NCBI RefSeq assembly: GCF_033954835.1
Contig: NZ_CP121471.1
Coordinates: 3,342,501 to 3,406,500 of the forward strand
Direction: 5' to 3'
DNA length: 64,000 nt
From: Thiorhodovibrio frisius
Lineage (GTDB): Bacteria > Pseudomonadota > Gammaproteobacteria > Chromatiales > Chromatiaceae
Each line of letters opens with the position of its first letter. Position 1 is the first letter of the stretch. Of this stretch, positions 3,100 through 63,082 are shown piece by piece. A program made the translations under genes and the position numbers. The notes under the pieces were generated by a model. The model was not told the DNA's origin and did no database searches. It saw only the letters and a list, made by a program, of their open reading frames with translations.

Positions 3100-3722
3100 T
3101 GGGATTGAAACGCGATGAGTTGGGATTCGTTCGCTCGAGCGGTTACGGACGCATTCGGCGCGATGAACTGGAGCAACTGCTCCGTGTTGGCCCTCGAGAT
3201 TCGGTCTACCGCTCCGGGATCGACCATGGCGTACGTACCGGGCAAGTCGTCACCGACCAAGAAGTTATGATCAAGCCAGGCGACACCTTTTCTGCCGGTC
3301 CTCGGGTGGTGAAAGGTGCGACTTTGGCTCCGTTGCCGGAGGCGCTGAAGCGAGAAGTCGACGCCCTGAGCCACGCTGGATTCGGTGGTGTCGGCATGCC
3401 TGAACCAGCAGAGGAAGGCTGGCGGCTGCGGCTGCGGGGGCTGACCCTTCCTGGAGGAAGCCGTACCGATGCCTTGATTCTGTTGCCCAAGACCTACCCC
3501 TTGGCCGCACCGATCGGTTTTTACTTGGCAAAGGGCGAGCAGACCGCACAGTTGGATCTTAGCCATCTGTTTGATCGCTCTTACTATGATGCACCTGACC
3601 TGACAGGACAAGGCTGGCAGTGGTACTGCGGGGTCGCCGACAACTGGCGGCCTGGCCATCATACGTTGGTCGCCTATCTGACGGTGACCTTGGCCTTCTT
3701 CGCCGACAAGGCGGTCAACTGA
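3099..3722 (+). CDS. E2/UBC-like protein with putative ubiquitin-like N-terminus
   Basis: A 207-residue protein. Residues about 85-205 follow the prokaryotic E2 'type E' pattern: 'GLTLPGG', 'ALILLPKTYPLAAPIGFYL', then 'GWQWYCGVADNWRPGHHTLVAYLTVTL'. The only cysteine, C177 in that block, is the natural candidate acceptor. Residues about 20-75 ('LEQLLRVGPRDSVY ... EVMIKPGDTFSAGP') resemble a single multi-ubiquitin-type beta-grasp unit, so this may be a ubiquitin-like/E2 fusion; that part is inference. The preceding GGAGGA is a strong ribosome site, and the stop overlaps the E1 start by one base. Partner of the JAB-E1 gene downstream. Confidence 0.72.
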   Translation: MGLKRDELGFVRSSGYGRIRRDELEQLLRVGPRDSVYRSGIDHGVRTGQVVTDQEVMIKPGDTFSAGPRVVKGATLAPLPEALKREVDALSHAGFGGVGMPEPAEEGWRLRLRGLTLPGGSRTDALILLPKTYPLAAPIGFYLAKGEQTAQLDLSHLFDRSYYDAPDLTGQGWQWYCGVADNWRPGHHTLVAYLTVTLAFFADKAVN

Positions 3723-9445: not shown

Positions 9446-9547
9446 ACCCTTAAGAAGTTAGACATTGAGAAATAAGACATACCAAGTTTGAGAGTGCGTT
9501 TATAAGTCCCTCCCCTTTCCCACATTTGCTGCAAGGATGAAAAAACC

Positions 9548-11857: not shown

Positions 11858-12013
11858 GCCGCCTTGTAAATTACGTGATTTATTAAACCCATAACCCTTC
11901 AATGGAACACTGCAAATCCATCTACGATCTTGTCCAACGCATAGGCCGCGAAGTCTTTATCCCAACGAACGATCTTGGCGGCAACTAACATCCACCAAGC
12001 CGCCTTGCTCGAC

Positions 12014-41233: not shown

Positions 41234-41266
41234 GGTCTCCGTGTTTCAGAGGCTGGTCGGCAACCT

Positions 41267-44200: not shown

Positions 44201-44362
44201 CACCTCGGTGACACGGGCGCTGTGATCGCTCAGGGCTGCCTCGAGGAGGCGATAGCCCGGCTCCTCAGGCCCATCGGCCAAGAGCGGGTAGAGCGTCAGG
44301 TTCTTGTGCGAGGTCGGTTTCCCAACGACCACTTCAGACAAACACTTGGCGATGGCGGACAT
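41267..44362 (-). CDS. ARPP-1 + vWA + PARG-like domain protein
   Basis: A 1031-residue protein. Residues 1-270: ARPP-1 domain ('PVLLLDGEELVGAKQNRILNL', 'IPVSCVEAGRW'). Middle (about 340-520): von Willebrand A domain with MIDAS-type 'ALVLDASHSLS'. C-terminal part (about 770-1030): TIGR02452-type PARG domain with 'PGGGFLQGNRAQES'. There QES replaces the normal QEE, so the second, catalytic Glu is Ser, and this copy may bind rather than hydrolyse ADP-ribose (inference). AGGAG precedes ATG 44362. It lies between a MerR regulator and the active-looking PARG gene. Confidence 0.82.
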   Translation of the reverse strand: MSAIAKCLSEVVVGKPTSHKNLTLYPLLADGPEEPGYRLLEAALSDHSARVTEVSESGHVPELKIINEGAQPVLLLDGEELVGAKQNRILNLTVLAPAQKTTIIPVSCVEAGRWHATSAEFSGARRAHFAAGRARKSADVNTSLRQRGSRESNQSAVWRDIETRSRRMGVNSGTNAAAALYESHRQSLDAFRSAFTPQTGQCGALFSLNGRILGLDLFDSPTTLAAVLSTLVESYALDALDAHGETVQPISAPTAADIKAWLDVIAGAEFERFPAVGEGEDWRFDDSHLTGGALVKDDRVIHLCAFRISAAEDSEEALNPAEIDTFSLALATDRALIRRQGHSKRVLQVRLQVPTINETTTPLDLALVLDASHSLSAAHWTEAQHAVRDVLERLGPDDRIALVIFNDVAEILLPLTPISEETRQAVEIALQNHHPGGGANLGEGWLTGCGLVGAESDKARRRHCLVLSAGQPDVGITAPATLAEHARALRNLGVVTSTFGLGDTYLEGLLAQLADAGGGYFQDIADAETIPVTINRHVEELGNLVSDHARLDLSWEGDLKVEPLGPWSATASAHALSLELGDLMKGETRDLLLRLRFPGGPKNTDCPLRMVLRDGDHHLVEEHIHWTWVDSATRHNQAHESEVEHRFAQHLAHQARIDVARSNRDGQLDQACAHLMDVAKQIRKEAGENPQNMALAAALEAETERYRKALPAREIKEQISRSGSLLRGRRQDGARMRINTKPRLHYLPTLDSDERAAQGKALRDTPRAETKKLGESAQAAIDAGHYSDAAGQSVDWSAAIAAAKAAKQSLPPDAALPEAPPPAFATTRVRVINAMTLDAAWRLSMTGARVLALNFANGIQPGGGFLQGNRAQESVLCRSSALIATLEGDPMYAAHAERPQPDSTDWAILSPDVPVFRDDAGRPRERPWPLSILTCAAPYAPTIGQDMSIQLMQSRIRRILAIARAHGYETLVLGAWGCGTFGNDPVPVAAAFHAALREQVGAFDEIVFAVTDWSPERRFLAPFAAEFKAQP

Positions 44363-50300: not shown

Positions 50301-51066
50301 TGGACTCGACATCGGCGGTATTGGCCACCCCGAAGCGCGCCTGCAGGGTGTCTTTGACAGCAGGCAGGAACTCGGCGGGCAAGAAGGCACTGATCCGCGC
50401 CCAGGCCTGATCGCAGCGCAGCGTCTGAGGCACACCGCCCTCGTAATACAGGGTGGTGAAGGCGACGTTGCTGCTCGCCAGCGCGGTGGTCACATCCGGC
50501 GCGGTCAGAATGTCATCCAGGGTGCGGCGCTGGGTATCGACATCGGCGAGCACGCAATCGGCGACATAGTTGACCAGCGAGCCTTCGACATCGGTGCCGG
50601 ACACCGGGGCATTGGCCGCGCCCAGCGATGCGCGGGATAGGGTGGCTTTTCTCACCCCCGCCAGCGTCTGCAAGGCATCGGCAAAGCCCTGACCGGTCAT
50701 CGCCGGCGTGGAGAAGGCCTGCTCCATCAGCCGGGTCACGCCATAGCCGACATTGGACATGGCCGCCCCGACCGCCGCTGGTCCGATTGGGACATTGTCG
50801 ACCACCCGGACCGAGCCGGTGTAAGCATCCTCCACGGTCACCGACACCGAGGTGCCGAAGGCCAGGAGATAGATCAGCATGGCAATGAACAGGCGCCCGA
50901 AGTACAGGGTGTTGTTGACCAGGCCCTGGAACATCCCAAGAATGATGCCGATCACCAGTCCCACCGCGACCAGTTGGCGGAAATCGCCCGTCCCGGTCAT
51001 GGCGGCGACGGCATTGAGGATTTGGGTCAGAAAGGCGGCATCGCCAATGGAGTAGATCTCGAACAT
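47329..51066 (-). CDS. traG: Conjugal transfer protein TraG with muramidase-like C-terminus
   Basis: A 1245-residue protein. Residues 1-420: TraG N-terminal membrane domain needed for pilus assembly and mating-pair stabilisation. The long periplasmic region (about 450-1050) is Gln/Ser-rich, as in F TraG. The last about 180 residues ('VIARPESRGNYNALFG', 'GGSPVGRYQILDDTLEGLIDRMGL') resemble phage-type muramidases, with the Glu in 'PESRGNY' a candidate catalytic residue. F TraG is about 940 residues and lacks this domain. It starts 4 nt after the traH stop. Confidence 0.88.
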   Translation of the reverse strand: MFEIYSIGDAAFLTQILNAVAAMTGTGDFRQLVAVGLVIGIILGMFQGLVNNTLYFGRLFIAMLIYLLAFGTSVSVTVEDAYTGSVRVVDNVPIGPAAVGAAMSNVGYGVTRLMEQAFSTPAMTGQGFADALQTLAGVRKATLSRASLGAANAPVSGTDVEGSLVNYVADCVLADVDTQRRTLDDILTAPDVTTALASSNVAFTTLYYEGGVPQTLRCDQAWARISAFLPAEFLPAVKDTLQARFGVANTADVESKLQNAVDALAGAGRDAQDYVLMSAALGWLEKGIVLTHENRLQWAAATSVQQAIAQRNAQWAAEQALFMNIVRPMMTFFEGFIYAVAPLMGFAVALGPMGISLTGKWLMFALWTQLWLPVLAVTNLYLMMAAGRDLDALSNVAQLEPFSFYGLMQLDLILQDWLATGGMLAAATPAIALMLIYGSAVTATHLAGRLRGSDHIDEKGLSPSVSSTAPALAISSGYQNTPYAGTVATGAESILPRFDLGTQASRETAVTEQALQQSSRQFLSSLGQTASMSAAHNRESFSQRALGFDYSASASETDKTLFSTGSSLSQQYAQTGLSANQMTGMLATGVGLAGGGRSGSAISGQLSGELRDQYQVSDQMAERVADDIATRVTSDTGFQSSLASSVSADAQQGLRSVFTQGLSTQDSAQLQQSAADVVQDSRSHQRAERLSQSAAASGSYGAAEVGQRLAGNPALAGQAYSAIDRLGLTGDHQRVSDWYSAMGVFANPEQARAAAAMHLLAGYAKPDRALSGEERLQARETAFSILGDAFQGPGGTGANPANGAGLHGAAGVFGSTRDQVLGAGLPDPRAQVAGLDGRLAENFLGNAALGGGDAVNRFHQDAQQRLMQSQAQREASLAEQRSDYWERQILGEANSHRSPAEATTDQLAGGIGNLLQRGIVQGDRAVAAFNGLLRGLQQGEGWSGAVAQARERYGDAIDGLASYQLQSLPENALTGTQEDFYRNQVDNGLLGNSAMGQALRFASPEQQALRERLVAEHGPDLGPAIAHQLTQAANSLDNSKLTEVMAYNRAEADAAEAQKKTESLAPGGLPGTAPAGLIHPNVSGGSAGAVLDVIARPESRGNYNALFGDAGQQQLRLTDMTLEQVQQVQQQLVAERGGSPVGRYQILDDTLEGLIDRMGLSGQERFSPALQDRMALVLAADAGLGAWQSGRLSDETFASRLSKIWAGLPADASGRSYHEGKAGNRALVGWESVVTGLGSARRGRD

Positions 51067-51070
51067 CGGC

Positions 51071-52489
51071 TCAGCCCTCCGGGGTCAGGCGGCCGCCGCC
51101 GGCTTGTTCGACGCTCCAGTAGGGTGTCGATTTGGCCGCTTGCAGCAGGTCCATGTAATAGGCAAGTTGTTCCTGCGCGGTGCCGTATTGGGCGCTGACC
51201 ACCTCGTACTCGGCTCTGAGGTCCGCGCGGGACTCGGCGATCTGTTCTCTGAGCAGACCGGCATAGGCGTTGTCCGCGACCACCGTCGCCAGGCTGACCG
51301 CACGGGCCATGTCGTGGAGCAGCTCCTGCACCAGCTCGATGGCAATCACCGGCGCGGCGCGCTCGGCGAAGAGCATGGCGGTGCCCTCGTCGATGCGCGC
51401 CAGATTGGCCACAGCACCGCCGAGGCCATTGGGGGCGACCTGCATGAAGGCTTTCTCGTCGGCGGTGAAGTCGCTGGTGCCGAAGCGGAACTTGGCGATG
51501 AGTCCGGGTGAACTCGCATCGCCGATCAGCAGGGTGCGCACCCGTTCGATCATGCCGGTGAGGGTCAGCGCTTGGACGGTGGGTGAGAGACAGTCATCGG
51601 CATCGCGACTGGGCGCGCAGCGATAGACCTGGACTTCGCGGTTATCCGAGGTGCCGTGCAGCAGATCGCGCAGAGACAAGACGGCTGGCAGCGGGGTGAC
51701 ACGGTTGTTACTGCCCTGCCCGTCCGGACTCGGTTCTGGCGGTCCGACGATGACGCTGCCGGTAACAGACATCAGGCTTTCGAGCAGGCTGTCGTCGCCT
51801 GCATCGAACCAGCCGCTGACGGCGCCGTCTTTCAAGGCCCGCCAGACCAGGTTGCCCTGGAGTTCCTCGCGGGCATAGTCCGGGTCGCTGTTCTGTACCT
51901 GGGTGATGGGGTCTTCACCGGTCACGGTGGACCAGGTCTCGAAGACATCGCCCAATCCTCTAACCAACGAGGCTTCGGAGTGCTTGATCTTCTGCTGGGT
52001 GTCGAAGGCATCGACCACATCGTTGACCACGCCCTGCCCCAGCTGACAGGAGTTGGCGAACAGGCTATTGAGCGCCTGAATCTTCTTCTGCAACGAGTCC
52101 ATCACCTGCCCGCAGTTCTGGCACATGGAGTCCAAGGCCAGCTTGAAGGCGTAGCTGCCGGCATTGGCGGCGATGGCGCGAAACAACTCGGTCAGCTGCT
52201 CGCGGGAGATATAGCTGAAGCCACCCGCGACCAGATCGATGCCGCCGCAGCCTGCCTCGAAGCTTGGGGGGATGATGTGAACGGGGTTGACGGTCATCAC
52301 CCGGTTGCGGGCATAGACCGACCCACCGGAGAGCACGCCCCGGCGCTGACCCATGTGGGCGGTGGGGTCGGTGACATTGACCAGGCTGTCGAACATGGCA
52401 TCCAGCTCGGACGATAGATCGGCCTGCGCCATGCCGGGCAAGCCGGCGCTGAGGGTGAGGGATAAACCGAGGACGGGCGCAACGCGCAT
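51071..52489 (-). CDS. traH: Conjugal transfer protein TraH
   Basis: A 472-residue periplasmic protein with a signal peptide (to 'GMAQA', residue about 23). TraH family blocks are visible: 'GGSVYARNRVMTVNPVHI', 'PSFEAGCGGIDLVAGGFSYI', 'ALDSMCQNCGQVMDSLQKKI'. It acts in F-type pilus extension. One-base overlap with traF. Confidence 0.9.
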   Translation of the reverse strand: MRVAPVLGLSLTLSAGLPGMAQADLSSELDAMFDSLVNVTDPTAHMGQRRGVLSGGSVYARNRVMTVNPVHIIPPSFEAGCGGIDLVAGGFSYISREQLTELFRAIAANAGSYAFKLALDSMCQNCGQVMDSLQKKIQALNSLFANSCQLGQGVVNDVVDAFDTQQKIKHSEASLVRGLGDVFETWSTVTGEDPITQVQNSDPDYAREELQGNLVWRALKDGAVSGWFDAGDDSLLESLMSVTGSVIVGPPEPSPDGQGSNNRVTPLPAVLSLRDLLHGTSDNREVQVYRCAPSRDADDCLSPTVQALTLTGMIERVRTLLIGDASSPGLIAKFRFGTSDFTADEKAFMQVAPNGLGGAVANLARIDEGTAMLFAERAAPVIAIELVQELLHDMARAVSLATVVADNAYAGLLREQIAESRADLRAEYEVVSAQYGTAQEQLAYYMDLLQAAKSTPYWSVEQAGGGRLTPEG

Positions 52490-53547
52490 TAGTGACCTCC
52501 GAGGCGATGATGCGTGGGGGATGGAATCAGGGGTTCAGTGACCGGGGGATTGGGTATCGCGCGGCGCTGACCGCGCAGGTGCTCAAGCAGCCGTTCGGGG
52601 TCTTCGGCCAGGTCTGGATCGCTGAACGTGCTCGTGTCCAGGCGCAGGGCGGTCACCCGCGCGCGGCTGCGTTCCAGCCAGCGCGGATCGATCCAGCCGG
52701 CATCGGCGGCGGTCTGGACGATGCGCTGCTGCAACTCGGCCAGCGACAGCACGCCTTGGGACAAAGGCTTGATGCCATCGGGCGGACGGACCAGGAAGAG
52801 CGCCGGGGTGGAGACCACACCAAGCGCGCGGGCCTGACCGCTGTCGGTGCGGAAGTCGGGAAAGAACCCGCTGGGCAAGGGTCGGCCATCCAGGGAGATG
52901 GCCTGCACGTCGAAGCCGTAGCGGTTGGCCAGCAGCTCAAGCAGCGGGGCCTGGGCTTCGCAGTAGGGGCAATCGGAGCGGTACAGGAACCAAAGGCCGG
53001 CGACCTGGGCGGTTTTGGTCAGCGCCTGGTCGCGTTGGTTCGCCGCTTCCCGATTGACCAGGTTGGCGGCGAAAGTCGCGAGTGGCCGGCGGGTGGTCTC
53101 GTCGAGGAAAGGGTCGGACCAGACGGCGCGCTGGCTCGCCTCGGCAAAGCGCTCGGCTTTGTCGATGGCCAGGCGTTGCAGGTAAAGATAGAGGGAGACG
53201 TTCTGCGGCGAGGGATCGTCGATGGCAACATCCCGGTAGCGCTCGAGGTTCGCGCGCAGCCAAGCGGCGGAGAGTGGCGCTGGGCCGGCGGGACGGCTTG
53301 GCGTCTTGGGCGTGAGCGGTTGCTCGGCGACCTTGTCGGTTTCCGGCGGTGGGGGCGGATCAGGTGGCGGTTCCGATTCCTCCTCGGGTTCAGGCTCGGG
53401 TTCGGGCGGTTGTTCGGCATACCAGAACCAGCCCTCAGCACCACGCTCGTAGAAGCGCGGCGAGGTGGGCTCAGTCTGGGCATGGACGGTGGTGCCAAGG
53501 ACGAGGGTGCCTGACAGCATGAGCAGGGGGATCGGGATGGTGTTCAT
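52489..53547 (-). CDS. traF: Conjugal transfer protein TraF
   Basis: A 352-residue protein with a signal peptide, a strongly acidic Pro-rich segment (about 45-75) and a thioredoxin-like domain with CPYC ('YRSDCPYCEAQAPLL'). The F-type TraF block 'LYLYLQRLAIDKAERFAEAS' is present. It is needed for pilus assembly; many TraF proteins lack the redox CxxC, but this one keeps it. First gene of traF-H-G. Confidence 0.9.
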   Translation of the reverse strand: MNTIPIPLLMLSGTLVLGTTVHAQTEPTSPRFYERGAEGWFWYAEQPPEPEPEPEEESEPPPDPPPPPETDKVAEQPLTPKTPSRPAGPAPLSAAWLRANLERYRDVAIDDPSPQNVSLYLYLQRLAIDKAERFAEASQRAVWSDPFLDETTRRPLATFAANLVNREAANQRDQALTKTAQVAGLWFLYRSDCPYCEAQAPLLELLANRYGFDVQAISLDGRPLPSGFFPDFRTDSGQARALGVVSTPALFLVRPPDGIKPLSQGVLSLAELQQRIVQTAADAGWIDPRWLERSRARVTALRLDTSTFSDPDLAEDPERLLEHLRGQRRAIPNPPVTEPLIPSPTHHRLGGH

Positions 53548-53770
53548 GCCACCATCCTGATCGCTGCGAGTTGTCAGAGCGACCTTGAAACCTCAGGCGG
53601 ATGGGCGTCTTTCGCGCTGGCGAGTGCAAGTCGAACTGGATCTAGCCGGCTTCAATTAGCGTCTAGTCCAACCAAACACCCCTTCAGGTTAGCCGTGATC
53701 GGTTAGGCACTAAGTGAGCTACGCTAAAGTATTGTTTCAAAAGCCTTAGATCCCAAGCAGAATATTATTT

Positions 53771-53784
53771 TTGATTTTAATCAA
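53771..53784. promoter_or_regulatory. Perfect FNR/ANR-type box
   Basis: TTGAT-TTTA-ATCAA, an exact match to the FNR consensus TTGAT-N4-ATCAA. It is centred about 83 bp upstream of the start predicted from the promoter at 53826, a position compatible with class I activation. It suggests oxygen control of the peptide genes. Confidence 0.6.
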
Positions 53785-53825
53785 TAGCTTAAAATGGATG
53801 CTGCGCGCAGCTTAACCGATTTTAC

Positions 53826-53854
53826 TTGACGCGCTAACGATTACAACCTAAGCT
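53826..53854 (+). promoter_or_regulatory. Probable promoter of the Cys-rich peptide genes
   Basis: TTGACG (53826-53831), 17-bp spacer, TAAGCT (53849-53854). It gives a leader of about 40 nt to ATG 53901. Confidence 0.45.
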
Positions 53855-53900
53855 TAGTGAGTAGAAATATACGCAGACGAACCGACTAGAGAGAAACAAA

Positions 53901-54080
53901 ATGGCTTGTCAATTTGCAGTTCCGTCAAGTAATCACTATTCCGCACTCTTCGGTGCGTTGAAAGAAACGGAAGCCCAATTAGCCGCTGCGATCTGCATCG
54001 GTCAATGCCAAGGATGTATGTGTAACTGCCGTTGCAGTTGCAGCGGTGGGGCTCTCAGTGATCTCGCATGGGATGACTAA
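53901..54080 (+). CDS. Cys-rich RiPP-like precursor peptide 1
   Basis: A 59-residue peptide. The leader has P8, H12-Y13, G18 and L20; the core holds seven Cys at 32, 36, 39, 41, 43, 45 and 47 ('CQGCMCNCRCSC'), then a Gly-Gly and an acidic tail. AGAGAG lies before ATG 53901. P8, HY, G18, L20 and the first core Cys (32) are at identical positions in peptide 2, so the two are paralogues. With a radical SAM/SPASM gene on the same strand 1.2 kb downstream, a ribosomally made, thioether-type product is likely. A metal-binding peptide is the alternative. Confidence 0.75.
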   Translation: MACQFAVPSSNHYSALFGALKETEAQLAAAICIGQCQGCMCNCRCSCSGGALSDLAWDD

Positions 54081-54081
54081 C

Positions 54082-54261
54082 ATGGAATCAATGATCGCAA
54101 ATCCGACGGATACTCACTATTACCAGATTTACGGCGAATTAGCTTTAGCAGGACACGAAACAACTATGCCAAGATGTGCATGTGTTGCTTGCAATAGCTG
54201 CACCTGCGCGTGCTCATGCAGAGCCGGCGAACAACAGGTTTGGGAATGGCCGGACTGCTGA
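54082..54261 (+). CDS. Cys-rich RiPP-like precursor peptide 2
   Basis: A 59-residue paralogue starting one base after the first peptide's stop. Core Cys at 32, 34, 37, 40, 42, 44 and 46 ('CACVACNSCTCACSC'), plus C59 as the last residue. The tail 'VWEWPDC' differs from peptide 1. Two related but non-identical precursors hint at a two-component product. Confidence 0.75.
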   Translation: MESMIANPTDTHYYQIYGELALAGHETTMPRCACVACNSCTCACSCRAGEQQVWEWPDC

Positions 54262-55284
54262 AGTGTTGACCTCTCGGAGGGGATGCCATCCATCTGAGCG
54301 AGAATAACTTTCGAGGGGTTTACACCCACGATGGGAAAAGCCCGAGCGCACTGATGACCACCACTTCCGTTCATCCAGTGGCCACCCTATTTTTATTTTA
54401 CCTGCAGTAAGATTACCCATAGCCATCAGACGCTTCTTAATACTGCACCCGACCACATCGGCTTAGACAGCATCGACACTGGGGTTGTTAAGGCCCGAAT
54501 CGAAGGCGTTGAGCACCTTTTTCCAATGACCGTTGATGGCCTGAGCGACCTTTGTCATCGACTCTAGGCAAAACGATGAGAGCAGTCACCCTCGAATCCA
54601 GCCGCTTTTCCGGCCTGCTCGTTTGAGTCGAGACGGAACGGAAGATATCTTGTACCGCATCATTGATGACCTAGGACTGCTGATCTCGCGTTTCAGCATT
54701 TGCAGGTCAAACAGTTGCGCACTCTCGCGGTTGCTCTGCTGGTATTTTTTCTCCTAGGGTTGCTGACAATCTCCGCCTCGTTCCGAATACAGTCAGGCAT
54801 GCCCTTCTTATCCAAACTAGTTTACTAGAATCTAACAGATTCGCATTACGGCTATGCCACCTCCCATTGTTTTAAAAGACGTCTATTTCATTGACTCCAA
54901 TCGCCACCGAAGTGCGAAAACCACCAAATTCTTTGCCTCGTCGCGATTGCTCTTTTTCGACTAATTAACTTTTGTTGCCTCTCGCAACTTCAACCGGCAG
55001 ACACTGAATTGTCACTTCGTTGGAGCGGCATTTGCTTAGGAGACTCTCCGACTTCCAAATTCAGCGCTCTTTACTAGCTATTGTTATTAATGATGCGTTT
55101 CTGCAACAACGCTAAAACATTTCTTTTAATCATCTCAAAACAATGGGTTAAGCAGTTCCAAAAAGCAAGTCGGACAGCCTCCTAGGCAGCGTAGTTGCTT
55201 CACCATCCAGCGTTCTCAGCTTGTATGTTCGCTACCACCCTCATATTTGGCGTTTAATAACCTCCTCGAGTCCACTCATTTAGC
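54262..55284. other. 1 kb AT-rich gap with transposase remnant
   Basis: No intact gene seen. Contains the short remnant at 54463-54566. The rest is low-GC sequence preceding the radical SAM gene, which has no strong ribosome site. Confidence 0.45.
54463..54566 (-). pseudogene. Possible ISL3-type transposase remnant
   Basis: About 33 codons read 'VAQAINGHWKKVLNAFDSGL' and then 'NNPSVDAV', which recalls the 'I..HW.GVL.AF.SR..NG..E' block near the end of ISL3 transposases. Stops on both sides. A weak call, but it suggests insertion-sequence traffic between the peptides and their enzyme. Confidence 0.35.
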
Positions 55285-56709
55285 ATGAACATCGCTGAAA
55301 ATATTCCTACACATCTTTTCTTCTCCAAATATGCTCACAAACTAGAGCGGAACGGGATATTTGCATATTTCCATGCATTGCGAATGAAGCCCGTATTCAT
55401 AAGCGCTGAAATGGAATCAACTATAGAGATGATACGATTATCCAAGGATGCTCGGAATGTCATAGCATCGATAACTAACCCCTCTTATCAAGAATCCGTG
55501 GTCTCCGCTATCAGCGCTCTTATCGAAAACAAAGTAATTACTAAAAACCCTGATGTCGACAAAAAAGTGATTACTCATTTCCGTTCTTCAATCCCTCCCG
55601 CGTACACACAGATTGCATACTTTATCCTGACCGAAAACTGTAATTTTGGATGTTCATATTGCTTCGTGAAAAGAGATGGAGAGACAAGATCTGGTGCTAG
55701 AGTTATGAGCCCAGAAACAGCTATCAAGGGATTAGAGCTATTCTGCAAACTAGTAGCAATGGACAAGGGCCGTTTTGAAGAGGAGAAAAATATAATTTTT
55801 TACGGTGGGGAACCCCTTTTAAACATAACTGTACTTCAAATCATTAGCAAGAAAGTCCGTGAGTACAAATCGTGCGGAAAGCTCCCTCAAGATACACGTT
55901 TATCAATTGTCACCAATGGCTCCTTACTCACCGAAGATAACATAGATCTTCTTAGTAGCAATAATGTCGCAATAGGAATCTCTCTTGATGGCGACGAATG
56001 CGCCACAAACTCTTGCAGGGCTTATACAGGTGGCGGACCGGTGTATCATGACATCATCAAAGGAATTGAACGATGCAAGGCGAAAAATATACCCTTCAGC
56101 CTCTCGGTAACCCTAACTGAACAAAGCGTCAAGAATTTTAATTCCACTCTCAGCGAGTTAAAGCAAATTGGTAGTAATGCACTAGGCTTCAATATTCTAT
56201 TGACAGATGAACAATTTCGGGTTTTCGAAGGATACAACGAAGCAGCCGCAGATTGCATCCTTACAGGCTTCGAGGAATTCAGGAGGAATGGTGTATACGA
56301 AGACAGAATGATGCGCAAATTGAAGTCATTTGCCGAATCGAGGGTTTATCTTTTTGACTGCGGAGCTGCAGGCGCAAGCCAAATTGTTGTTGCACCGGAC
56401 GGCGATCTTGGTATATGCCACGGCTTTCTTGGGAGCCGGGAAAATTTCCCTACAAATGTTGATAACATGGATTTCGATCCTTCGACTGACCCCACTTTTT
56501 TAGAGTGGAGGAAACGAACGCCCCTGAATATGCCAGATTGCGAAAATTGTATGGCTCTTGGTATCTGCGGAGGAGGTTGCCCACTGAATGCGCTCAAGAA
56601 TACGGGGAGCATTTGGGGGTTAGATGAACGGTTTTGTGTCCACTCAATAAAAACACTCCAATGGCTTGTCTGGGATCTATTCGCGCAAGTTACTAAATCC
56701 GGCAACTGA
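55285..56709 (+). CDS. Radical SAM/SPASM peptide-modifying enzyme
   Basis: A 474-residue protein. Residues 1-105: an N-terminal segment typical of peptide maturases. The radical SAM cluster motif is C119-x3-C123-x2-C126 ('TENCNFGCSYCFVKRDG'), followed by 'FYGGEPLLN' and 'VTNGSLLTEDN'. The C-terminal SPASM region carries Cys near 358 and 378, then 'CENCMALGICGGGCPLNA' (about 419-436) and a final Cys near 451, ligands for two extra Fe-S clusters. It probably forms thioether or C-C links in the Cys-rich precursors. Low GC compared with the window; no clear ribosome site. Confidence 0.9.
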   Translation: MNIAENIPTHLFFSKYAHKLERNGIFAYFHALRMKPVFISAEMESTIEMIRLSKDARNVIASITNPSYQESVVSAISALIENKVITKNPDVDKKVITHFRSSIPPAYTQIAYFILTENCNFGCSYCFVKRDGETRSGARVMSPETAIKGLELFCKLVAMDKGRFEEEKNIIFYGGEPLLNITVLQIISKKVREYKSCGKLPQDTRLSIVTNGSLLTEDNIDLLSSNNVAIGISLDGDECATNSCRAYTGGGPVYHDIIKGIERCKAKNIPFSLSVTLTEQSVKNFNSTLSELKQIGSNALGFNILLTDEQFRVFEGYNEAAADCILTGFEEFRRNGVYEDRMMRKLKSFAESRVYLFDCGAAGASQIVVAPDGDLGICHGFLGSRENFPTNVDNMDFDPSTDPTFLEWRKRTPLNMPDCENCMALGICGGGCPLNALKNTGSIWGLDERFCVHSIKTLQWLVWDLFAQVTKSGN

Positions 56710-56724
56710 TTACCTGTTACGCAA

Positions 56725-58947
56725 CTAGTACCCTGTTTCTTGCGCAATCAATTTTTCCATTATTGAGCTTCCCTTTGATACGAAGTTAGACTTTTCTCCA
56801 AGATATGTCACATTGCCTCCATAGATTCCGCTACCTGGCCCTAGTTCTATTAGATAAGAGCAATAGCTCAACGCAAAGGGGTTGTGCTCTGATATGAATA
56901 CTGATGACCCATCTTCAACCGCAGCGTACAGTACGCGGATGATACCTTGTATATTTTGTTTGTCTAATCCACGAAAAGGCTCATCCATCAGGATTATTCG
57001 TTTCCTTTTTTTCTCAAGCAGTTTTGCGGAGAATTTGACCCGTTGAGCCTCACCGCCAGACAACGTTGAAGTACTCTGAAAAAGCGTCAAATATCCTAGC
57101 CCGACATTTGAAGCAAGATTTAATGCTTTTAAGATTAAAATATTTTTCTTTGGGACCATTAATAGAATATCATTAATATGCAAGCTTAAGAATTCATAAA
57201 TATCAAGCCCATTCCACCTTTTTTTTAAAGCAAATTCGGAGAAACGGCGCCCGCCGCAAGCCGGACAGAGCAATGGTTCTGGAACGTACGAAGATATCTC
57301 TTCCAAAAAGCCTTTTCCAGAACATACTTCGCACTGCCCTTTCCCCTGAGATGAGTAGAAAAAGTTTTCACGAGAACCGCCTGTTTCGGCTGCGAATAGG
57401 CTAATTATCTCTTCAAAAATGCCGAGTGCTGTCCCAACTATCGAATAAGCATTTCCTCGTATAGCTGTCTGACTAAAATACTGCGTATTATCAAGATATC
57501 TTGGTAAAATATTCTTCATGAATGAAGTCTTCCCTGAACCCGAAACTCCACAAACCCCTACAACTGTACCTAAAGGAATGTTGCAATCTAGGTCATTAAT
57601 ATTGTTACTAGATGCTGATCCTATTTCAAACTCTGAAGTTGATTGAATGAATCTATAGGGCAATGTTTTTTTCGTAAAGCACTTCTTTTCTTCTGTGACG
57701 ATTTGCCCTCCATTCCTGCCGCCTCCTGGCCCTAACCAAATGCAATTATCTGCTCTATCTCGTAGAAACTCGTTATGCTCAATTAATAATATGGTGTTGT
57801 TTTTCTTCTTTAGTTCGACAAGAACGTCTGAAATTATATTCCATTCGCTTGGGTGCAACCCAGAAGTCGGCTCGTCGAGAATGTAAATGAAATTTGTAAA
57901 CTGTGAATTGAGTGATTTTGCCAATCGGAGTCTCTGTAACTCCCCGCCAGAGAGACTTGGTATCGAGCGATTTAGAGTTAAATAACCTAAATTTAACCTG
58001 ACAAGCGATTCGAGGAATCGCTCTATATGTCGGAAGGGTCTTATCTCGACCGAAGAATTTTGCCAAGATGGTTTTCTAACTTTCAGCCAATCAAGTAGTT
58101 GGTCGATTTCTAAGCAATATAGTTCACCAATATTCTTACCATATAGCAAAAACGTAAGACTATATCTTGAAAACCTCTTCCCTGCACAGGTGGGACATGT
58201 TACCTCTTTTAGGTATTTCTTCTTGTACGTGCTCAGTTTTTTTTGTTCAATTTCTTCAATTATCTCTTGGATTGGACCACTGTACTTAGCTGTCTTTGTA
58301 TGTTTTCTTCCATTTGACGAAAATGCAATACGGTACTTTGTGGCTGACTTACCATAAAGCAAAAGATCTTGATCTGTTTTATTAAGACTTTTAAATTGCA
58401 GTTCTAAATTTATGGAATTTTCAGCACAAAAGTATTCGAGTGACTTTTGGTAATACTCGCGACGCGAAGCTCTCCACGATCTAAACGGCATGTCTCTGAG
58501 TTTTTTAGAAAGTTCAACAACTGCAAAAACGTCGGGTGCAAGAACAACTCCCAGTCCTTTACACACATCACAAGCAAACCTAAGCGTGTTAAATTGAAAG
58601 TGAGACTGCGATACATTGTTTTTGAGCGAAAATAATTGCTTGAAATAGGTGTCTAAACCAAAATAAGTTGCGATTGTGGATCGAGGATTCCGGTTGTAAT
58701 TTTCCTGCTGAAGGCAGACAGCAGGCAAAATGTTCTTATAGTCCTTTATCTCGTACCGAGATACACTGTCCCGCGTATCAAAAAGCTGAGAAAGCTCGTC
58801 CTCGCTTATTTTGTATATAGTATCTATTGCAATTGATGACTTTCCACTACCGCTCGGGCCTCCAATGAAAGTTATCTCGCCAGATCTTATTACTATATCT
58901 AGATTTCTAACGTTATTTGTAGTAATTCCTTTATATAAAATTTTCAT
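56725..58947 (-). CDS. UvrA-like ABC ATPase (short class)
   Basis: A 740-residue protein, shorter than UvrA (about 940). It keeps two ATPase halves: Walker A 'GGPSGSGKSS' (near 33) and 'GVSGSGKTSF', signatures 'LSGGELQRLRLAKSL' and 'LSGGEAQRVKFSAKL', and UvrA zinc motifs ('CDVCKG', 'CPTCAGKRF', 'CEVCSGKG', 'CPACGGRRF'). The UvrB-binding region appears missing. Short UvrA relatives (UvrA2/DrrC) protect producers of DNA-binding antibiotics. It is convergent with the radical SAM gene and equally AT-rich, so it may give self-protection (inference). Confidence 0.87.
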   Translation of the reverse strand: MKILYKGITTNNVRNLDIVIRSGEITFIGGPSGSGKSSIAIDTIYKISEDELSQLFDTRDSVSRYEIKDYKNILPAVCLQQENYNRNPRSTIATYFGLDTYFKQLFSLKNNVSQSHFQFNTLRFACDVCKGLGVVLAPDVFAVVELSKKLRDMPFRSWRASRREYYQKSLEYFCAENSINLELQFKSLNKTDQDLLLYGKSATKYRIAFSSNGRKHTKTAKYSGPIQEIIEEIEQKKLSTYKKKYLKEVTCPTCAGKRFSRYSLTFLLYGKNIGELYCLEIDQLLDWLKVRKPSWQNSSVEIRPFRHIERFLESLVRLNLGYLTLNRSIPSLSGGELQRLRLAKSLNSQFTNFIYILDEPTSGLHPSEWNIISDVLVELKKKNNTILLIEHNEFLRDRADNCIWLGPGGGRNGGQIVTEEKKCFTKKTLPYRFIQSTSEFEIGSASSNNINDLDCNIPLGTVVGVCGVSGSGKTSFMKNILPRYLDNTQYFSQTAIRGNAYSIVGTALGIFEEIISLFAAETGGSRENFFYSSQGKGQCEVCSGKGFLEEISSYVPEPLLCPACGGRRFSEFALKKRWNGLDIYEFLSLHINDILLMVPKKNILILKALNLASNVGLGYLTLFQSTSTLSGGEAQRVKFSAKLLEKKRKRIILMDEPFRGLDKQNIQGIIRVLYAAVEDGSSVFISEHNPFALSYCSYLIELGPGSGIYGGNVTYLGEKSNFVSKGSSIMEKLIAQETGY

Positions 58948-59051
58948 TTATCAACCTTCTATGCTTTTGAGGATGGAGGATTCAGGGAACATATATCGGC
59001 TTCGTTAACATGGTAAGCGTCAACTCTCCACTCGAATGCGTACTCCTTAGG

Positions 59052-59705
59052 CTACTTGATTTCGACCATCACCTCGTTGCGCCGCAGAAACGGTAGGGAG
59101 AACGGTGAGTTGTAGCGCGCGTAGACGGGCGTGCCAATGGGCGTGAGCCCAGCAGCGCGAACCGCCTCAAGCAGCTTTCTTTCGTGCGCGCGATAGCGGC
59201 TTTCACCCCAGCCGCCCGAATAACGGAGCACAGCCATCAGTCGTTCCGGCTCTTGGCGCAGTTCAATGCGCGGGTCCGTGGGACGCGGAATGGTCTCGAG
59301 GGTGAAGCGACTGGGCATCACGAAGCTGATCCGGTAAGTGCCGGTCGCAGCATCATCCGCCTGTTGTTTGACCGGCGCGGTCATCGGGATGCGCGTCCCA
59401 CCGCCCTTTGCCTCGGGCGCGACAGGAGCCTGACTCACGGGTGCGGTCATGGCGATTTTCTCAGCCGCTTGATTGTTGCCGAAGATGTAGTCGGCCAAAC
59501 GACGAAAGGCATCGCCGCCGACATCGTCGAAGTCTCCGCTGACCTCGGTCTCGGCAAGCAGCTGGGGCGCGTAGCGGCGGAGTTCGAAATCCGGGCCTTC
59601 CCGGACCAGGGTATATGCCGGCTCCTCGGTGGCCATGACATGCCCTCCTATCAAAAGCCCTTGCAACAACGCCAGCCATATCAGTAAGCGGTTTGCTGTT
59701 TTCAT
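59052..59705 (-). CDS. SOUL-family haem-binding protein
   Basis: A 217-residue protein with a signal peptide ('LLIWLALLQGLLIGGHVMA'). SOUL/HEBP blocks follow: 'YTLVREGPDFELRRYAPQLLAET', split here at 'GDFDDVGGDAFRRLADYIFGNN', 'KIAMTAPV' and 'RIPMTAPV'. It probably binds haem or another tetrapyrrole in the periplasm. ATG 59705 has AGGAAA upstream. Confidence 0.88.
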   Translation of the reverse strand: MKTANRLLIWLALLQGLLIGGHVMATEEPAYTLVREGPDFELRRYAPQLLAETEVSGDFDDVGGDAFRRLADYIFGNNQAAEKIAMTAPVSQAPVAPEAKGGGTRIPMTAPVKQQADDAATGTYRISFVMPSRFTLETIPRPTDPRIELRQEPERLMAVLRYSGGWGESRYRAHERKLLEAVRAAGLTPIGTPVYARYNSPFSLPFLRRNEVMVEIK

Positions 59706-60317
59706 TTGCGGTTTCCTCAAATCCGATCCGACGCCTTCACATCCCTTCCCGGGTGATGGGGGCAGCACGCAGTCCGGGCAAGCCGTGATCGCGCGCGAGG
59801 TCTACTTGCCGCCAAGCGTTTACGGGCAGCGACCCATGCCACCCCGCTGAAAAACAGCACCTTTCAGCGGAGCTTTCGCGGCTGCGCACTGGCCTCAATG
59901 CGGCAATACTCAAGGATCAAGGTAAAGGGACCGCAAGACAGTCCGACACCCTTGCCCATCACGATTTTCCTCGCTTGCCGGCACTTGTCGCCGCCAGCGT
60001 TTCAGACCGAAGACGCCATGAGTCTGGCCCTCGTTTGAGGGTTACCAACCGCGTCCGTTCCATCCCCCTTCCCAGGGTTTCCCTCTTCCCATCCATTCGG
60101 CTGAGGCGACTGCCTTGCAGACCGTCACCGGCCAGGAGTTTCCCATGTTCTCACGTCCGTGGCGGATTCCCCGCCGTTGGAAGGTGCTGTTCTGGCAGCT
60201 GAGCGACAGGCTACTCGGCGCGCGTGTCGCGCCATTGCCGCCGCCACAACCGCATCCTCTGGAGTCGCCGACCTGCCTGCGTCGGCGTTCATTTTCACCC
60301 CACCGTGGAGATTGATC
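59706..60317. other. Intergenic region before ssb; hairpin, no firm gene
   Basis: Contains a 9-bp perfect hairpin (59844-59852 with 59862-59870, CCGCTGAAA/TTTCAGCGG). A short + frame starting at 60115 or 60145 has no recognised domain. The last part (about 60285-60305, TTCACCCCACCGTGG) resembles the starts of the structured leaders before bet and exo. Confidence 0.5.
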
Positions 60318-60716
60318 ATGCTGAACAAAGCCCAATTGATCGGCCATCTCGGGCGCGATCCCGAGGTCCGTCAAGCCAAGAACGGCCAAGGCGCTGTCGC
60401 CAACCTGACCCTGGCCACCAGCGAGCGCTGGAAGGACAAAACCGGCGAGACGCAGGAACGCACCGAGTGGCACCGCGTGGTGCTGTTTGGGCGCACGGCG
60501 GAAGTGGCCGGCGAGTACCTCAACAAGGGTGCGCTGGTCTATGTCGAAGGCCGCTTGCAGACCCGCCAATGGCAGGATGATGCCGGTCAGGACCGCTACA
60601 CCACCGAGATCGTCACCGACAAGATGAAAATGCTTGGCGGCAAGAACGGTTCCGCTGGCAATAGCCAGAAAGCACCGACATCAAAGGCGAATTTCGACGA
60701 TGACCTGCCGTTCTGA
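60318..60716 (+). CDS. ssb: Single-stranded DNA-binding protein
   Basis: A 132-residue protein: OB fold from '[17 protein letters not shown]' to '[23 protein letters not shown]', then a short linker and the acidic tip 'FDDDLPF' that recruits partner proteins. It is shorter than chromosomal SSB. First gene of the recombination operon that is also found in SXT-like elements. Confidence 0.93.
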
Positions 60717-60888
60717 TCCCGCTGACCAGCGCCCGATCCGTTTCGGCGCCACCCGCCGCTGGGCCTGCCGGGAGTTGTCCCTGATGGCTCAGCGTCTGCG
60801 CCTCCGTGCCAAACAGGTGGCGCCCGATGGCGGTCAGCCGGAGCGGCTGACCAGCCTCGCGCAACGACTTGAGCAGCTCGCGCGCTAA
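60700..60888 (+). CDS. Small basic protein (tentative)
   Basis: A 62-residue Arg-rich frame overlapping the end of ssb by 17 nt ('[20 protein letters not shown] ...', C-terminal '[10 protein letters not shown]'). No family recognised and no clear ribosome site; it may be translated by coupling to ssb. Confidence 0.35.
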
Positions 60889-60904
60889 GCCGACTAGTCT
60901 TCTT

Positions 60905-60950
60905 TCCACCCACGGGGTACCAGTGACCCCGTGGGGCCTTGTGCCCCATT
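60905..60950 (+). promoter_or_regulatory. Structured leader upstream of bet
   Basis: TTTCCACCCACGGGGT starts a perfect 8-bp hairpin (CACGGGGT 60912-60919 / ACCCCGTG 60927-60934), followed by a second GGGG/CCCC pair (60934-60948). Similar leaders precede exo and cobS. Confidence 0.55.
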
Positions 60951-60966
60951 CATTGAGGAGGGCATC

Positions 60967-61965
60967 ATGACCCGTTCGATGCAAGCTGTGCCAAAAGCCG
61001 ACGCGCCGCGCATCCCGATGCCGGCGGTCGATCCGGCGCTGAATGTGACCCCCAGCACCTGGAAGGTGCTGACCGATTCCATTTTCCCGGCGGCCAAGAC
61101 CGCCGAGGGCATTCTACTGGCGGTGCATTACTGCGCCGCCCGCAATCTGGACGTGATCAAGCGTCCGGTGCATGTGGTGCCCATGTGGTCGAAGGCACTT
61201 GGTCAAGAGATCGAGACCGTCTGGCCCGGCATTGCCGAGGTGCAGACCACGGCCGCGCGCACCGGGCAGTGGGCCGGGATTGATCCACCCCGCTTTGGGC
61301 CTGTGATCGAGCGGACCTTCAGCGGGCGCATCAAGCGCAACGGCGCCTGGCAGGAACTCGATTATTCCGTCAGCTTTCCCGAGTGGTGCGAGGTGACCGT
61401 CTATCGGCTTGTCGGCGGCCAGCGCTGTCCTTTCACCGAGCCGGTGTTCTGGCTGGAAGCCTACGCCCGTCAGGGCGGGGCCTACTCGGAGCTGCCAACG
61501 GAGATGTGGGTCAAACGCCCGCGCGGACAGTTGATGAAGTGCGCCAAGGCGGCCTCGTTGCGGGCGGCTTTTCCCGAGGAAGCCTCTTATACCGCCGAGG
61601 AGATGGAAGGCAAGGTGATCGAGGCAGATACCTCAATTCCCATTGCTGCGTCGCTGGATGCGACAGGGACTGTCCCCGCGAAGGCGGATACTGCGCCATC
61701 CGGGGTCGCTGAGGGAGCGTCGGACGCAGCGCCATCGAAAGCATCTGAAACACCAATGGACTCAGAGCCACCTGCCGAACCGATCACCCTCGATCCCAGC
61801 CTGCAAGCGCGGATCGATAAGGTGGTCGCCCGCGCGGCGGAAAAATCCGCCTGGAAGCAGGCCGAGCAGTATCTGCGCGCGCGCTGCAAGGGGGCTGAAC
61901 TCAAGCAAGCGCTTAAGGCCCTCGATCAAGCCCAACAGACCGCCGAGCAGCGCTTGGCCGCCTGA
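60967..61965 (+). CDS. bet: RecT/Bet-family single-strand annealing protein
   Basis: A 332-residue protein. The RecT core spans residues about 15-215 ('EGILLAVHYCAARNLDVIKRPVHVVPM', split here; 'PTEMWVKRPRGQLMKCAKAASLRAAFPE'). A variable acidic linker and a basic C-terminus ('AEQYLRARCKGAELKQALKAL') follow. It anneals complementary strands with the exonuclease downstream, as lambda Red does. GAGGAGGG lies before ATG 60967. Confidence 0.9.
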   Translation: MTRSMQAVPKADAPRIPMPAVDPALNVTPSTWKVLTDSIFPAAKTAEGILLAVHYCAARNLDVIKRPVHVVPMWSKALGQEIETVWPGIAEVQTTAARTGQWAGIDPPRFGPVIERTFSGRIKRNGAWQELDYSVSFPEWCEVTVYRLVGGQRCPFTEPVFWLEAYARQGGAYSELPTEMWVKRPRGQLMKCAKAASLRAAFPEEASYTAEEMEGKVIEADTSIPIAASLDATGTVPAKADTAPSGVAEGASDAAPSKASETPMDSEPPAEPITLDPSLQARIDKVVARAAEKSAWKQAEQYLRARCKGAELKQALKALDQAQQTAEQRLAA

Positions 61966-61985
61966 GCTCAGCTGAACCGCAGCTT

Positions 61986-62043
61986 TTCATTCACCCCACG
62001 GGGCGTTCTGCCCCGAGGGGGCATGGCGCCCCGGTCTTTTTTT
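61986..62043 (+). promoter_or_regulatory. Structured leader/attenuator upstream of exo
   Basis: TTCATTCACCC precedes hairpin CGGGGC (61999-62004)/GCCCCG (62010-62015), then GGGG/CCCC (about 62017-62032) followed by GGTC and a run of eight T to 62043. The second hairpin plus T-run looks like a terminator directly before the exo ribosome site. Confidence 0.6.
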
Positions 62044-62056
62044 GACGGAGCTTTCC

Positions 62057-63082
62057 ATGAAGAGTATCGATCTGGCCCAACGCACCCCCGAATGGCACCA
62101 GTGGCGTGCCCAGGGCATCACCGCCTCGGAATCAGCCATCATTCTCGGTCGCTCGCCCTACAAGACGCCCTGGCGCCTGTGGGCCGAACGCACCGGGTTG
62201 GCCAAGACCGCGGACTTGAGCAAGAACCCGCTGGTGCAGCGGGGCAACCGACTGGAAGATGCCGCCCGGCAGTGGTTCGAGCAGCGTTACGACACCCTGG
62301 TCTTGCCGGTCTGTGGGGAATCCGAGGAGGAGCCGCTGCTGCGTGCCTCTTTCGATGGACTGACCGATGCCGGCGAGCCGGTGGAGTTGAAGGTGCCCTC
62401 GGAACGCACCTTGCGCGATGTGGCGGAACATGGCCGCGCGGCCAGCGCCTTTCGGCTCTATGAGCCCCAGGTCCAACACCAGCTTTATGTCGCCGGGGCG
62501 GACAAGGGCTATCTGGTGTTCTATCAGGAAGACCAGGAACCCATCGTCTTCGAGATCGCCCGCGATGCGGCCTTGATCGAGGCCATAGTCTCCCAGGGCA
62601 AAGCCTTCTGGCAGGCGTTGGTCGAGGAACGTGAACCGGAGAAAGACCCGCAGCGGGATCTGTTCATTCCCAAGGGGCCGCAGGCCGACGATTGGGCGGT
62701 GCTGGCCGGGCGCTATAGCGCGCTCCAGCAGGAAGCCAAAACGGTCGAAGCTGAGTTAAAGCGCAAAAAAGCCGCGCTGGATGACATCCAGACCACCTTG
62801 GTCGCCATGATGGGCCATTCGCTTATTGCCGAGTCCGCCGGACTGCGGGTGACGCGCTTCTGCGCTAAAGGGTCGGTGGATTATGCGGCGCTGTTGCAGG
62901 TGCGCCTGCCAGAGTTGGGCGGTGACGCCATTGATGCCTTCCGCCGTCAATCCTCTGAACGGGTGCGGGTGACCGTGCAGGAGCATCCTCAGAAAGCGGT
63001 GATTCCGTTTAAGGCGAGAACCGCCCCAAACCCCATCGCCGATGACCACGGTCTCGCCGTGGCCACCAGTTTCTGGTTCTGA
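62057..63082 (+). CDS. exo: YqaJ/lambda-type exonuclease
   Basis: A 341-residue protein with the YqaJ nuclease landmarks: 'QRTPEWHQWRAQGITASES' with 'LGRSPYKTPWRLW', 'RGNRLEDAARQWFEQRY', catalytic 'LRASFDGLTD' and 'ELKVPS'. A coiled coil (about 220-255) follows. It degrades one strand of double-stranded ends to feed the Bet protein. GGAG lies before ATG 62057. Confidence 0.9.
   Translation: MKSIDLAQRTPEWHQWRAQGITASESAIILGRSPYKTPWRLWAERTGLAKTADLSKNPLVQRGNRLEDAARQWFEQRYDTLVLPVCGESEEEPLLRASFDGLTDAGEPVELKVPSERTLRDVAEHGRAASAFRLYEPQVQHQLYVAGADKGYLVFYQEDQEPIVFEIARDAALIEAIVSQGKAFWQALVEEREPEKDPQRDLFIPKGPQADDWAVLAGRYSALQQEAKTVEAELKRKKAALDDIQTTLVAMMGHSLIAESAGLRVTRFCAKGSVDYAALLQVRLPELGGDAIDAFRRQSSERVRVTVQEHPQKAVIPFKARTAPNPIADDHGLAVATSFWF

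Follow-up and report, generated by a model that had tools for sequence, protein, structure and literature searches.

The 64,000-nucleotide stretch of the Thiorhodovibrio frisius genome analysed here (contig NZ_CP121471.1, positions 3,342,501 to 3,406,500; referred to below as the window) contains a FibroRumin cassette, which consists of two cysteine-rich precursor peptides, A and B, and one radical S-adenosylmethionine (SAM)/SPASM maturase, and adjoins a gene for a UvrA-like ATPase. In the reading favoured here, to which a probability of about 0.55 was assigned, A and B are both modified by the single maturase and their mature cores work as one product. Judged from the sequence comparisons, this product is most likely two-part and enzyme-modified, and possibly DNA-directed. 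The features that carry the argument are the following:

53901..54080, plus strand: precursor peptide A, FibroRumin type A, 59 aa with an ATG start (TIGR04135, 54.1 bits; cut-off 45).
53934..53960, plus strand: leader motif of A, HYSALFGAL (residues 12-20), a proposed recognition element for the enzyme.
53994..54041, plus strand: A core, residues 32-47, seven Cys; strict pattern match, kept across loci.
54082..54261, plus strand: precursor peptide B, FibroRumin type B, 59 aa (TIGR04135, 47.9 bits; cut-off 45).
54115..54141, plus strand: leader motif of B, HYYQIYGEL (residues 12-20), the same motif as in A, with the same proposed role.
54175..54219, plus strand: B core, residues 32-46, seven Cys; strict pattern match in 18/18 loci.
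55285..56709, plus strand: FibroRumin radical SAM/SPASM peptide maturase, 474 aa (TIGR04136, 423 bits; cut-off 400).
55321..55584, plus strand: N-terminal strands and helices of the maturase, a proposed precursor-recognition domain resembling the recognition element of ribosomally synthesized and post-translationally modified peptides (RiPPs), named from the model's secondary structure and full-length Foldseek matches.
55639..55662, plus strand: radical SAM cluster motif C-x3-C-x2-C (C119, C123, C126), invariant in 19 sequences.
56359..56637, plus strand: SPASM region with seven Cys (C359, C378, C419, C422, C428, C432, C451), invariant in 19 sequences.

Searches with the NCBIfam profiles placed A, B and the enzyme in the FibroRumin family, which is the first step of the proposed mechanism. 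Both peptides exceeded the curated cut-off of TIGR04135 (E = 1.1e-14 for A and 9.4e-13 for B) and were the sole matches to this profile at E <= 0.01 in the 5.42-Mb genome, while Pfam gave no family for either at E <= 1; in the enzyme, Pfam identified a Radical_SAM domain. These results replace the statement of the original prediction, made from the letters of the window, that the core fitted no precursor family that could be named, and agree with its proposal of ribosomal peptide precursors served by a SPASM maturase. Most of its description was also borne out by direct reading: the two 59-residue peptides exist at 53901-54080 and 54082-54261, they share P8, H12-Y13, G18, L20 and C32, each core has seven Cys, and they precede an AT-rich radical SAM/SPASM gene (GC content 0.41-0.45 per kb versus ~0.63 on either side of the cassette), although 1,023 bp separate B from the enzyme gene, the next gene on the same strand. 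The two core patterns differ, being C-x3-C-x2-C-x-C-x-C-x-C-x-C in A and C-x-C-x2-C-x2-C-x-C-x-C-x-C in B. One extra Cys lies outside each core (C3 in A, C59 in B), and in both peptides the tail behind the core carries acidic residues and a Trp, which may or may not serve as acceptor sites. The stop of A is at 54080 and the ATG of B at 54082; the mechanically called open reading frame (ORF) of B opens at a GTG at 54046, and the internal ATG gives the 59 residues.

The relatives used for comparison came mainly from a scan of genome contigs, in which six short patterns from the window's protein led to 30 enzyme relatives from 87 candidate stretches; since the patterns were taken from this protein, the sample leans towards the window's kin. 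All 18 loci with separate peptides (the window, L004 to L019 and L036) showed a type A peptide, then a type B peptide, then the enzyme, on one strand. The full seven-Cys pattern was kept in 18/18 loci for B and in 16/18 for A, the exceptions being L011 (altered spacing) and L019 (Tyr at the first Cys), and strict A and B patterns were found only at FibroRumin cassettes among all loci examined. A whole-genome check of the 22 genomes reached through the loci revealed TIGR04135 matches at E <= 0.001 in 14 and above the cut-off in 13, each of the 13 having exactly two; in G547 the second match was below the cut-off, and the fourteenth genome had one weak match. In the loci found, A and B are distinct and always paired types, the second step of the mechanism.

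Further information on this pairing came from loci in which both cores occur in one ORF. In L034, from a genome of the same taxonomic family as the window (G021), the two types are fused in a 103-residue ORF, where a leader and an A core shortened to four Cys are followed by another leader and a complete B core, whereas L023, L024 and L045 encode a single-leader peptide in which a B-like core precedes the initial part of an A core. The fused forms do not have the last Cys of the A core, which suggests that its last C-x-C part is dispensable. In a quick enzyme tree, L034 joined the window and L004 with a support of 93, while L023 and L024 were inside a 17-row clade with a support of 100 (L045 was left out). 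Because these loci lie apart in the tree, the two fusion arrangements probably arose independently, and two different ways of fusing A and B indicate that the peptides probably act together; the fusions are the best evidence that they do so as one unit. It is very likely, from the two kinds of fusion and the invariant pairing, that the two modified cores would form one functional unit, as the fifth step of the mechanism proposes, and the earlier suggestion of a two-part product from paired precursors gains from both observations. That A and B are two independent products which merely share an enzyme would suit the separate ORFs and separate leaders of the 18 loci, but neither peptide occurs alone among the loci, their order is fixed and they have been fused in two ways, so that this alternative is very unlikely. 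The original prediction would have been contradicted if the enzyme paired with other precursors in relatives: close relatives keep A and B, but more distant ones differ, for example the four Bacteroidota loci L020, L022, L025 and L030, which have single Cys-rich peptides of other patterns. At a further distant relative (L027, Myxococcales), two related Cys-rich peptides were observed on either strand around the enzyme (7266-7514 and 11689-11925).

The maturase is the only one in the segment and the only match in the genome at E <= 1e-30. It is 73% identical to the L004 enzyme, and with L004 and L034 it forms an outlying branch that is 37-41% identical to the main clade. Its predicted structure (mean predicted local distance difference test score, 89.3) begins with three strands (residues 17-22, 25-30 and 37-40) followed by three helices (41-52, 56-61 and 66-81), which look like a leader-recognition domain in the model. 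A leader motif, Y-x3-hydrophobic-aromatic/aliphatic-G-x-I/L, precedes most A and B cores across the loci, and in the third step of the mechanism the N-terminal domain would bind this shared motif.

In the fourth step, the maturase would cross-link the core Cys, and by analogy with its nearest characterised relatives the links are likely to be thioethers. The top Foldseek matches of the model were 8vpo (TigE), 5why and 5wgg, the last two of which we take to be the thioether-forming CteB, and the next NCBIfam matches were PapB (NF047865) and QhpD, which both make Cys-to-acid thioethers. PapB and CteB are RiPP radical SAM/SPASM enzymes like the maturase, but the score of the maturase for PapB was far below the cut-off (148.2 bits versus 340), and its substrates have a dense C-x-C core instead of the Cys-x3-Asp repeats of PapB substrates; the profile of the SCIFF maturase (TIGR03974) likewise gave 106.1 bits for a cut-off of 425. 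TigE was the best match by fold (E 2.4e-22) at 18% identity, and it is known for a modification other than a thioether, so that the fold does not fix the chemistry.

Conservation was concentrated in the cores. Mean pairwise identity was 0.82 for the A core (17 loci) and 0.94 for the B core (18 loci), or 0.69 and 0.89, respectively, without the Cys columns, while the leaders reached 0.21 (A) and 0.32 (B) in an ungapped comparison that makes these values somewhat low. At the codon level (15 loci for each peptide), pN/pS was 0.127 for the A core and 0.057 for the B core, as compared to 0.787 and 0.665 for the leaders, in which pN was 0.588 (A) and 0.491 (B). The core values combined a high pS (0.97 in A, 0.83 in B) with a low pN (0.122 and 0.047), which indicates that selection, rather than recent transfer, maintains the cores. 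The cores are thus nearly invariant across phyla while the leaders drift; peptides used in competition would be expected to show the reverse.

Very strong purifying selection of this kind would also suit a cofactor-like role, in which the peptides are metal carriers whose seven Cys, in C-x-C and C-x2-C spacing, hold Zn, Cu or an Fe-S cluster, with the enzymatic modification tuning the binding. The Cys pattern is invariant while other residues vary more, and the fusion of the two cores into a single chain would be in keeping with a metal site that they share; on the other hand, the fused forms do without the last Cys of the A core, no metal transporter or regulator family is common to the loci, and the UvrA-like neighbour does not fit. 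Such a metal role appears rather unlikely.

The neighbour that the favoured reading has to accommodate lies on the opposite strand:

56725..58947, minus strand: UvrA-like ABC ATPase of 740 aa without the UvrB-binding domain, a proposed protection protein on the basis of its tree placement and of members of the same family directly downstream of the maturase elsewhere.

The original prediction had recognised the peptides and the enzyme, and the unit at 53901-56709 is real; it very probably extends to this gene, which had been missed together with the mobile-element setting. When neighbouring ORFs with 80 or more residues were clustered, a UvrA-like protein of ~700 residues was found next to the enzyme in 17 of 32 sequences. 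Such a gene is present at 16 of the 18 paired loci, including the window (L036 counted from its record; missing at L004 and L005), and beside the enzyme in 17/17 rows of the 17-row enzyme clade. Distances of the UvrA-like proteins and the enzymes were correlated over 14 loci (r 0.91), also without the window (0.71) and without the window and L023 (0.92), with a Mantel p of 0.0002 in each case and host kinship uncontrolled. The window's UvrA-like protein grouped with the FibroRumin-linked ones (Shimodaira-Hasegawa-like approximate likelihood ratio support, 100), an alternative grouping with five other UvrA-like rows was rejected (approximately unbiased test, p 8e-6), and the motif DEP[FY][RK]G was found in 16/16 linked proteins versus 0/10 others. 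At L016 (Fretibacterium), the UvrA-like ORF (9501-11612) aligns over 21% of the tree columns and may be broken.

The architecture of this protein resembles that of class II UvrA proteins. Only 14 residues lie between the anchors of the UvrB-binding domain, as compared to 156-160 in four canonical UvrA, and the gap was also seen in the alignment to 2r6f, while a 101-residue insertion domain (PF17755 match) and the Walker A, signature and Walker B motifs of both halves are retained. Among the best 50 Foldseek rows, Ecm16 (7sh1) had the highest target-normalised TM-score (0.83). Ecm16 is described as lacking the UvrB-binding domain and keeping the insertion domain, which is required for DNA binding and resistance (PMC10192343); it binds echinomycin-bearing DNA and confers resistance, and DrrC has the same architecture (PMC10192343, PMC10413001). 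Both protect makers of DNA-binding drugs and are encoded, like the present gene, beside a biosynthetic cluster (PMC10192343, PMC10413001). Their hosts make non-ribosomal or polyketide DNA-binding drugs, whereas the window encodes a ribosomal peptide for which DNA activity is proposed only. On a Streptomyces globisporus plasmid, a UvrA-like gene was found beside an enediyne chromoprotein gene.

By analogy, in the sixth step the product might act on DNA, and the UvrA-like protein might remove it from the maker's DNA as Ecm16 does for echinomycin. This DNA-directed activity with UvrA-like self-protection is put forward tentatively, and several observations weigh against it or against the favoured reading as a whole. 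The window's UvrA-like protein is on a long branch of the tree and is 30-33% identical to the linked proteins and 31-34% identical to plasmid-borne or unrelated UvrA-like proteins and canonical UvrA, so that it is tied to the linked family only by its tree placement, a single motif and the length of the linker; its best sequence and Foldseek E-values belong to canonical UvrA and not to Ecm16, and its gene is convergent with that of the enzyme. The nearest relatives, L004, L005 and L034, have no UvrA-like gene beside the enzyme, and their genomes show only canonical UvrA, which means that the partner is not essential to the system. An antibiotic engaged in an arms race would not usually be conserved between phyla as these cores are. 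Finally, no other neighbour family was common to more than three of the 32 loci, and hence no recurrent exporter or peptidase, although many flanks end at contig ends.

An alternative is a secreted two-peptide bacteriocin or sactibiotic such as thuricin CD, with the window's UvrA-like gene as an unrelated passenger: two precursors occur with a SPASM maturase, and that gene is on the other strand and ~32% identical to its family. However, no exporter or immunity family recurs, the cores are far better kept than the leaders, which is the reverse of what competition favours, and a UvrA-like gene adjoins 16/18 paired loci, so that this explanation is quite unlikely. Thuricin CD (Trn-alpha and Trn-beta) is, like the product proposed here, a two-component radical SAM peptide (PMC12093266, PMC4289311), but it is reported to use two radical SAM enzymes (PMC12093266), as compared to one in the window. 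With one maturase in the segment and one genome match, the window falls outside the thuricin CD type.

The cassette lies in a mobile element, described by two further features (no strand assigned):

53584..59043: the variable segment as a whole, which is cargo flanked by conserved parts of a conjugative element and delimited by collinearity with G001 on both sides.
54262..55284: the 1,023-bp spacer from B to the enzyme gene, with fragments that recur at other places in genomes of the genus.

A TraF-like protein at 52489-53547 places the window in a conjugative element. A genome of the same genus (G001) is collinear with the window at 50926-53583 and 59044-62148 and has a different 1.9-kb content in between, in two other copies of the element, of which one is in the same genome and the other in G002, similarity ends at 53619, and no such enzyme was found in G001 or G002. 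The cassette thus fills a site of the conjugative element that takes variable cargo. The GC content falls from ~0.63 outside to 0.38-0.45 within the cassette. A lost gene was first suspected in the 1-kb spacer and was rejected, since the search showed only short repeated fragments; parts 80-126 and 205-308 of the spacer query matched other places in G000, G001, G002 and G006. These are a 45-bp and a 100-bp fragment, of which genomes of the genus contain several copies. At the sister locus L004, only ~190 bp separate B from the enzyme gene. Promoter and terminator scans gave results not above those of shuffled sequences, and a repeat search within the cassette returned nothing usable.

Mobile-element domains were also present in seven of nine relative loci (from ten hand-picked neighbours), namely Mob_Pre, a resolvase, a type IV secretion coupling protein with MobA, MobA, an integrase and two transposases. 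Among plasmid records there was one true relative, on a Campylobacter plasmid, whose record names both peptides and the enzyme FibroRumin and lists the UvrA-like gene as a hypothetical protein. The last step of the mechanism, travel of the cassette as cargo of mobile elements, is shown here for a conjugative element and, in one relative, for a plasmid. Carriage by phages or viruses was rejected, as phage records gave no match and viral contigs none by protein or by core patterns; E. coli genomes were negative in a search with the DNA of the Kosakonia enzyme and UvrA-like gene. The most specific version of the proposal, a mobile two-chain peptide of two modified seven-Cys cores that would bind DNA, would remain inside the cell or act on it with no dedicated exporter, and would be stripped from the carrier's DNA by a UvrA-class ATPase, is doubtful as a whole.

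The cassette is rare and patchily distributed. Among 142 related genomes, two had the enzyme at E <= 1e-30, namely G021 and the genome of the window. With TIGR04136 at E <= 1e-60, a sample of 398 genomes from the phylum gave one positive, again the genome of the window, and a sample of 394 from the order to which L007 belongs gave two. The hosts belong to Pseudomonadota, Campylobacterota, Bacillota, Bacteroidota, Actinomycetota, Synergistota and Spirochaetota, several of them represented only by metagenome bins. Such a distribution would be no objection to an intercellular or intracellular signal peptide, a role proposed for some clostridial Cys-rich peptides, and the invariant core would suit it; its occurrence on mobile elements of seven or more phyla without a shared receptor or regulator stands against it, and a signal is highly improbable.

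Four FibroRumin loci (L034, L005, L011 and L019) lie beside defence genes, those at L019 being AbiL genes. At L034 (3955-15537, G021), the fused cassette is inside a type III CRISPR locus, where the maturase gene is followed after 14 bp by a Cas10 gene on the opposite strand, with genes for Cmr4, a Csm5-like protein, a second Cas10 and Cas1 nearby. At L005 (9712-16378), Wadjet (Jet) genes are ~320 bp downstream of the Desulfosporosinus cassette, and at L011 (11537-16203), 8 bp lie between the UvrA-like gene and the type I restriction and methyltransferase genes that follow it. A link between FibroRumin loci and defence islands was nevertheless rejected, since control stretches gave comparable defence genes and enrichment was unsupported. 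The 62 flanking ORFs from 17 loci (63 were picked, one long L036 ORF being left out; L014 gave none) matched 86 PADLOC families at E <= 1e-20, among the 25 listed a type I methyltransferase, JetA, JetB, Cas10, Cas1, AbiLi, AbiEi and PDC-S05. The 71 control ORFs, from 12 stretches of the same genome set, matched 35 families, including among the 25 listed a type II restriction enzyme and methyltransferase, a type I specificity subunit, QatD, mad5, PDC-S34 and PDC-S66; ten of these stretches were contig starts, five of 17 were dropped as too short, and the output does not assign matches to loci. PADLOC matches of the window's enzyme to pVip and of the UvrA-like protein to mad3 were read as superfamily matches and not as membership. 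According to one report, phages are blocked by drugs that intercalate into DNA, and these drugs act jointly with defences that target nucleic acids (PMC13250531); an anti-phage role of the cassette is possible.

Elsewhere in the window, the minus strand encodes two large proteins side by side (37172-44362) with an apparent shared domain, which presumably resembles bacterial poly(ADP-ribose) glycohydrolases; one seems to carry Sel1-like repeats and the other a von Willebrand A-like part. A gene at 3620-5119, beside small unknown genes, encodes what we take to resemble a JAB protease fused to an E1-like enzyme, and may belong to a defence or ubiquitin-like system.

With respect to the literature searched, which lacks most subscription journals, the names FibroRumin, TIGR04135 and TIGR04136 were in no paper, nor did any paper combine radical SAM, UvrA, RiPP and precursor peptide; as far as this literature goes, the family is named but unstudied, and the system of the window is an ordinary member of it. 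It shares with the FibroRumin system the scores above the cut-offs, the paired peptides and the order A-B-enzyme, and differs in its outlying enzyme branch, the 1,023-bp spacer and a UvrA-like gene that is convergent instead of downstream on the same strand. New here are the recognition of A and B as two conserved, always paired types, the natural fusions, the contrast between nearly invariant cores and drifting leaders, the UvrA-like partner and the position of the cassette at a cargo site of a conjugative element. The comparison yields a testable structure for the family: obligately paired peptides, fusions that show dispensable Cys, and a partner that points to DNA as the target. If the DNA-directed reading is true, it would link radical SAM peptide chemistry to the self-resistance of daunorubicin and echinomycin producers and would offer a handle for genome mining of more such products. 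UvrA-type self-protection would then be seen for the first time in a ribosomal peptide system, and the FibroRumin product could be a DNA-directed chemical weapon or an anti-phage agent carried on conjugative elements.

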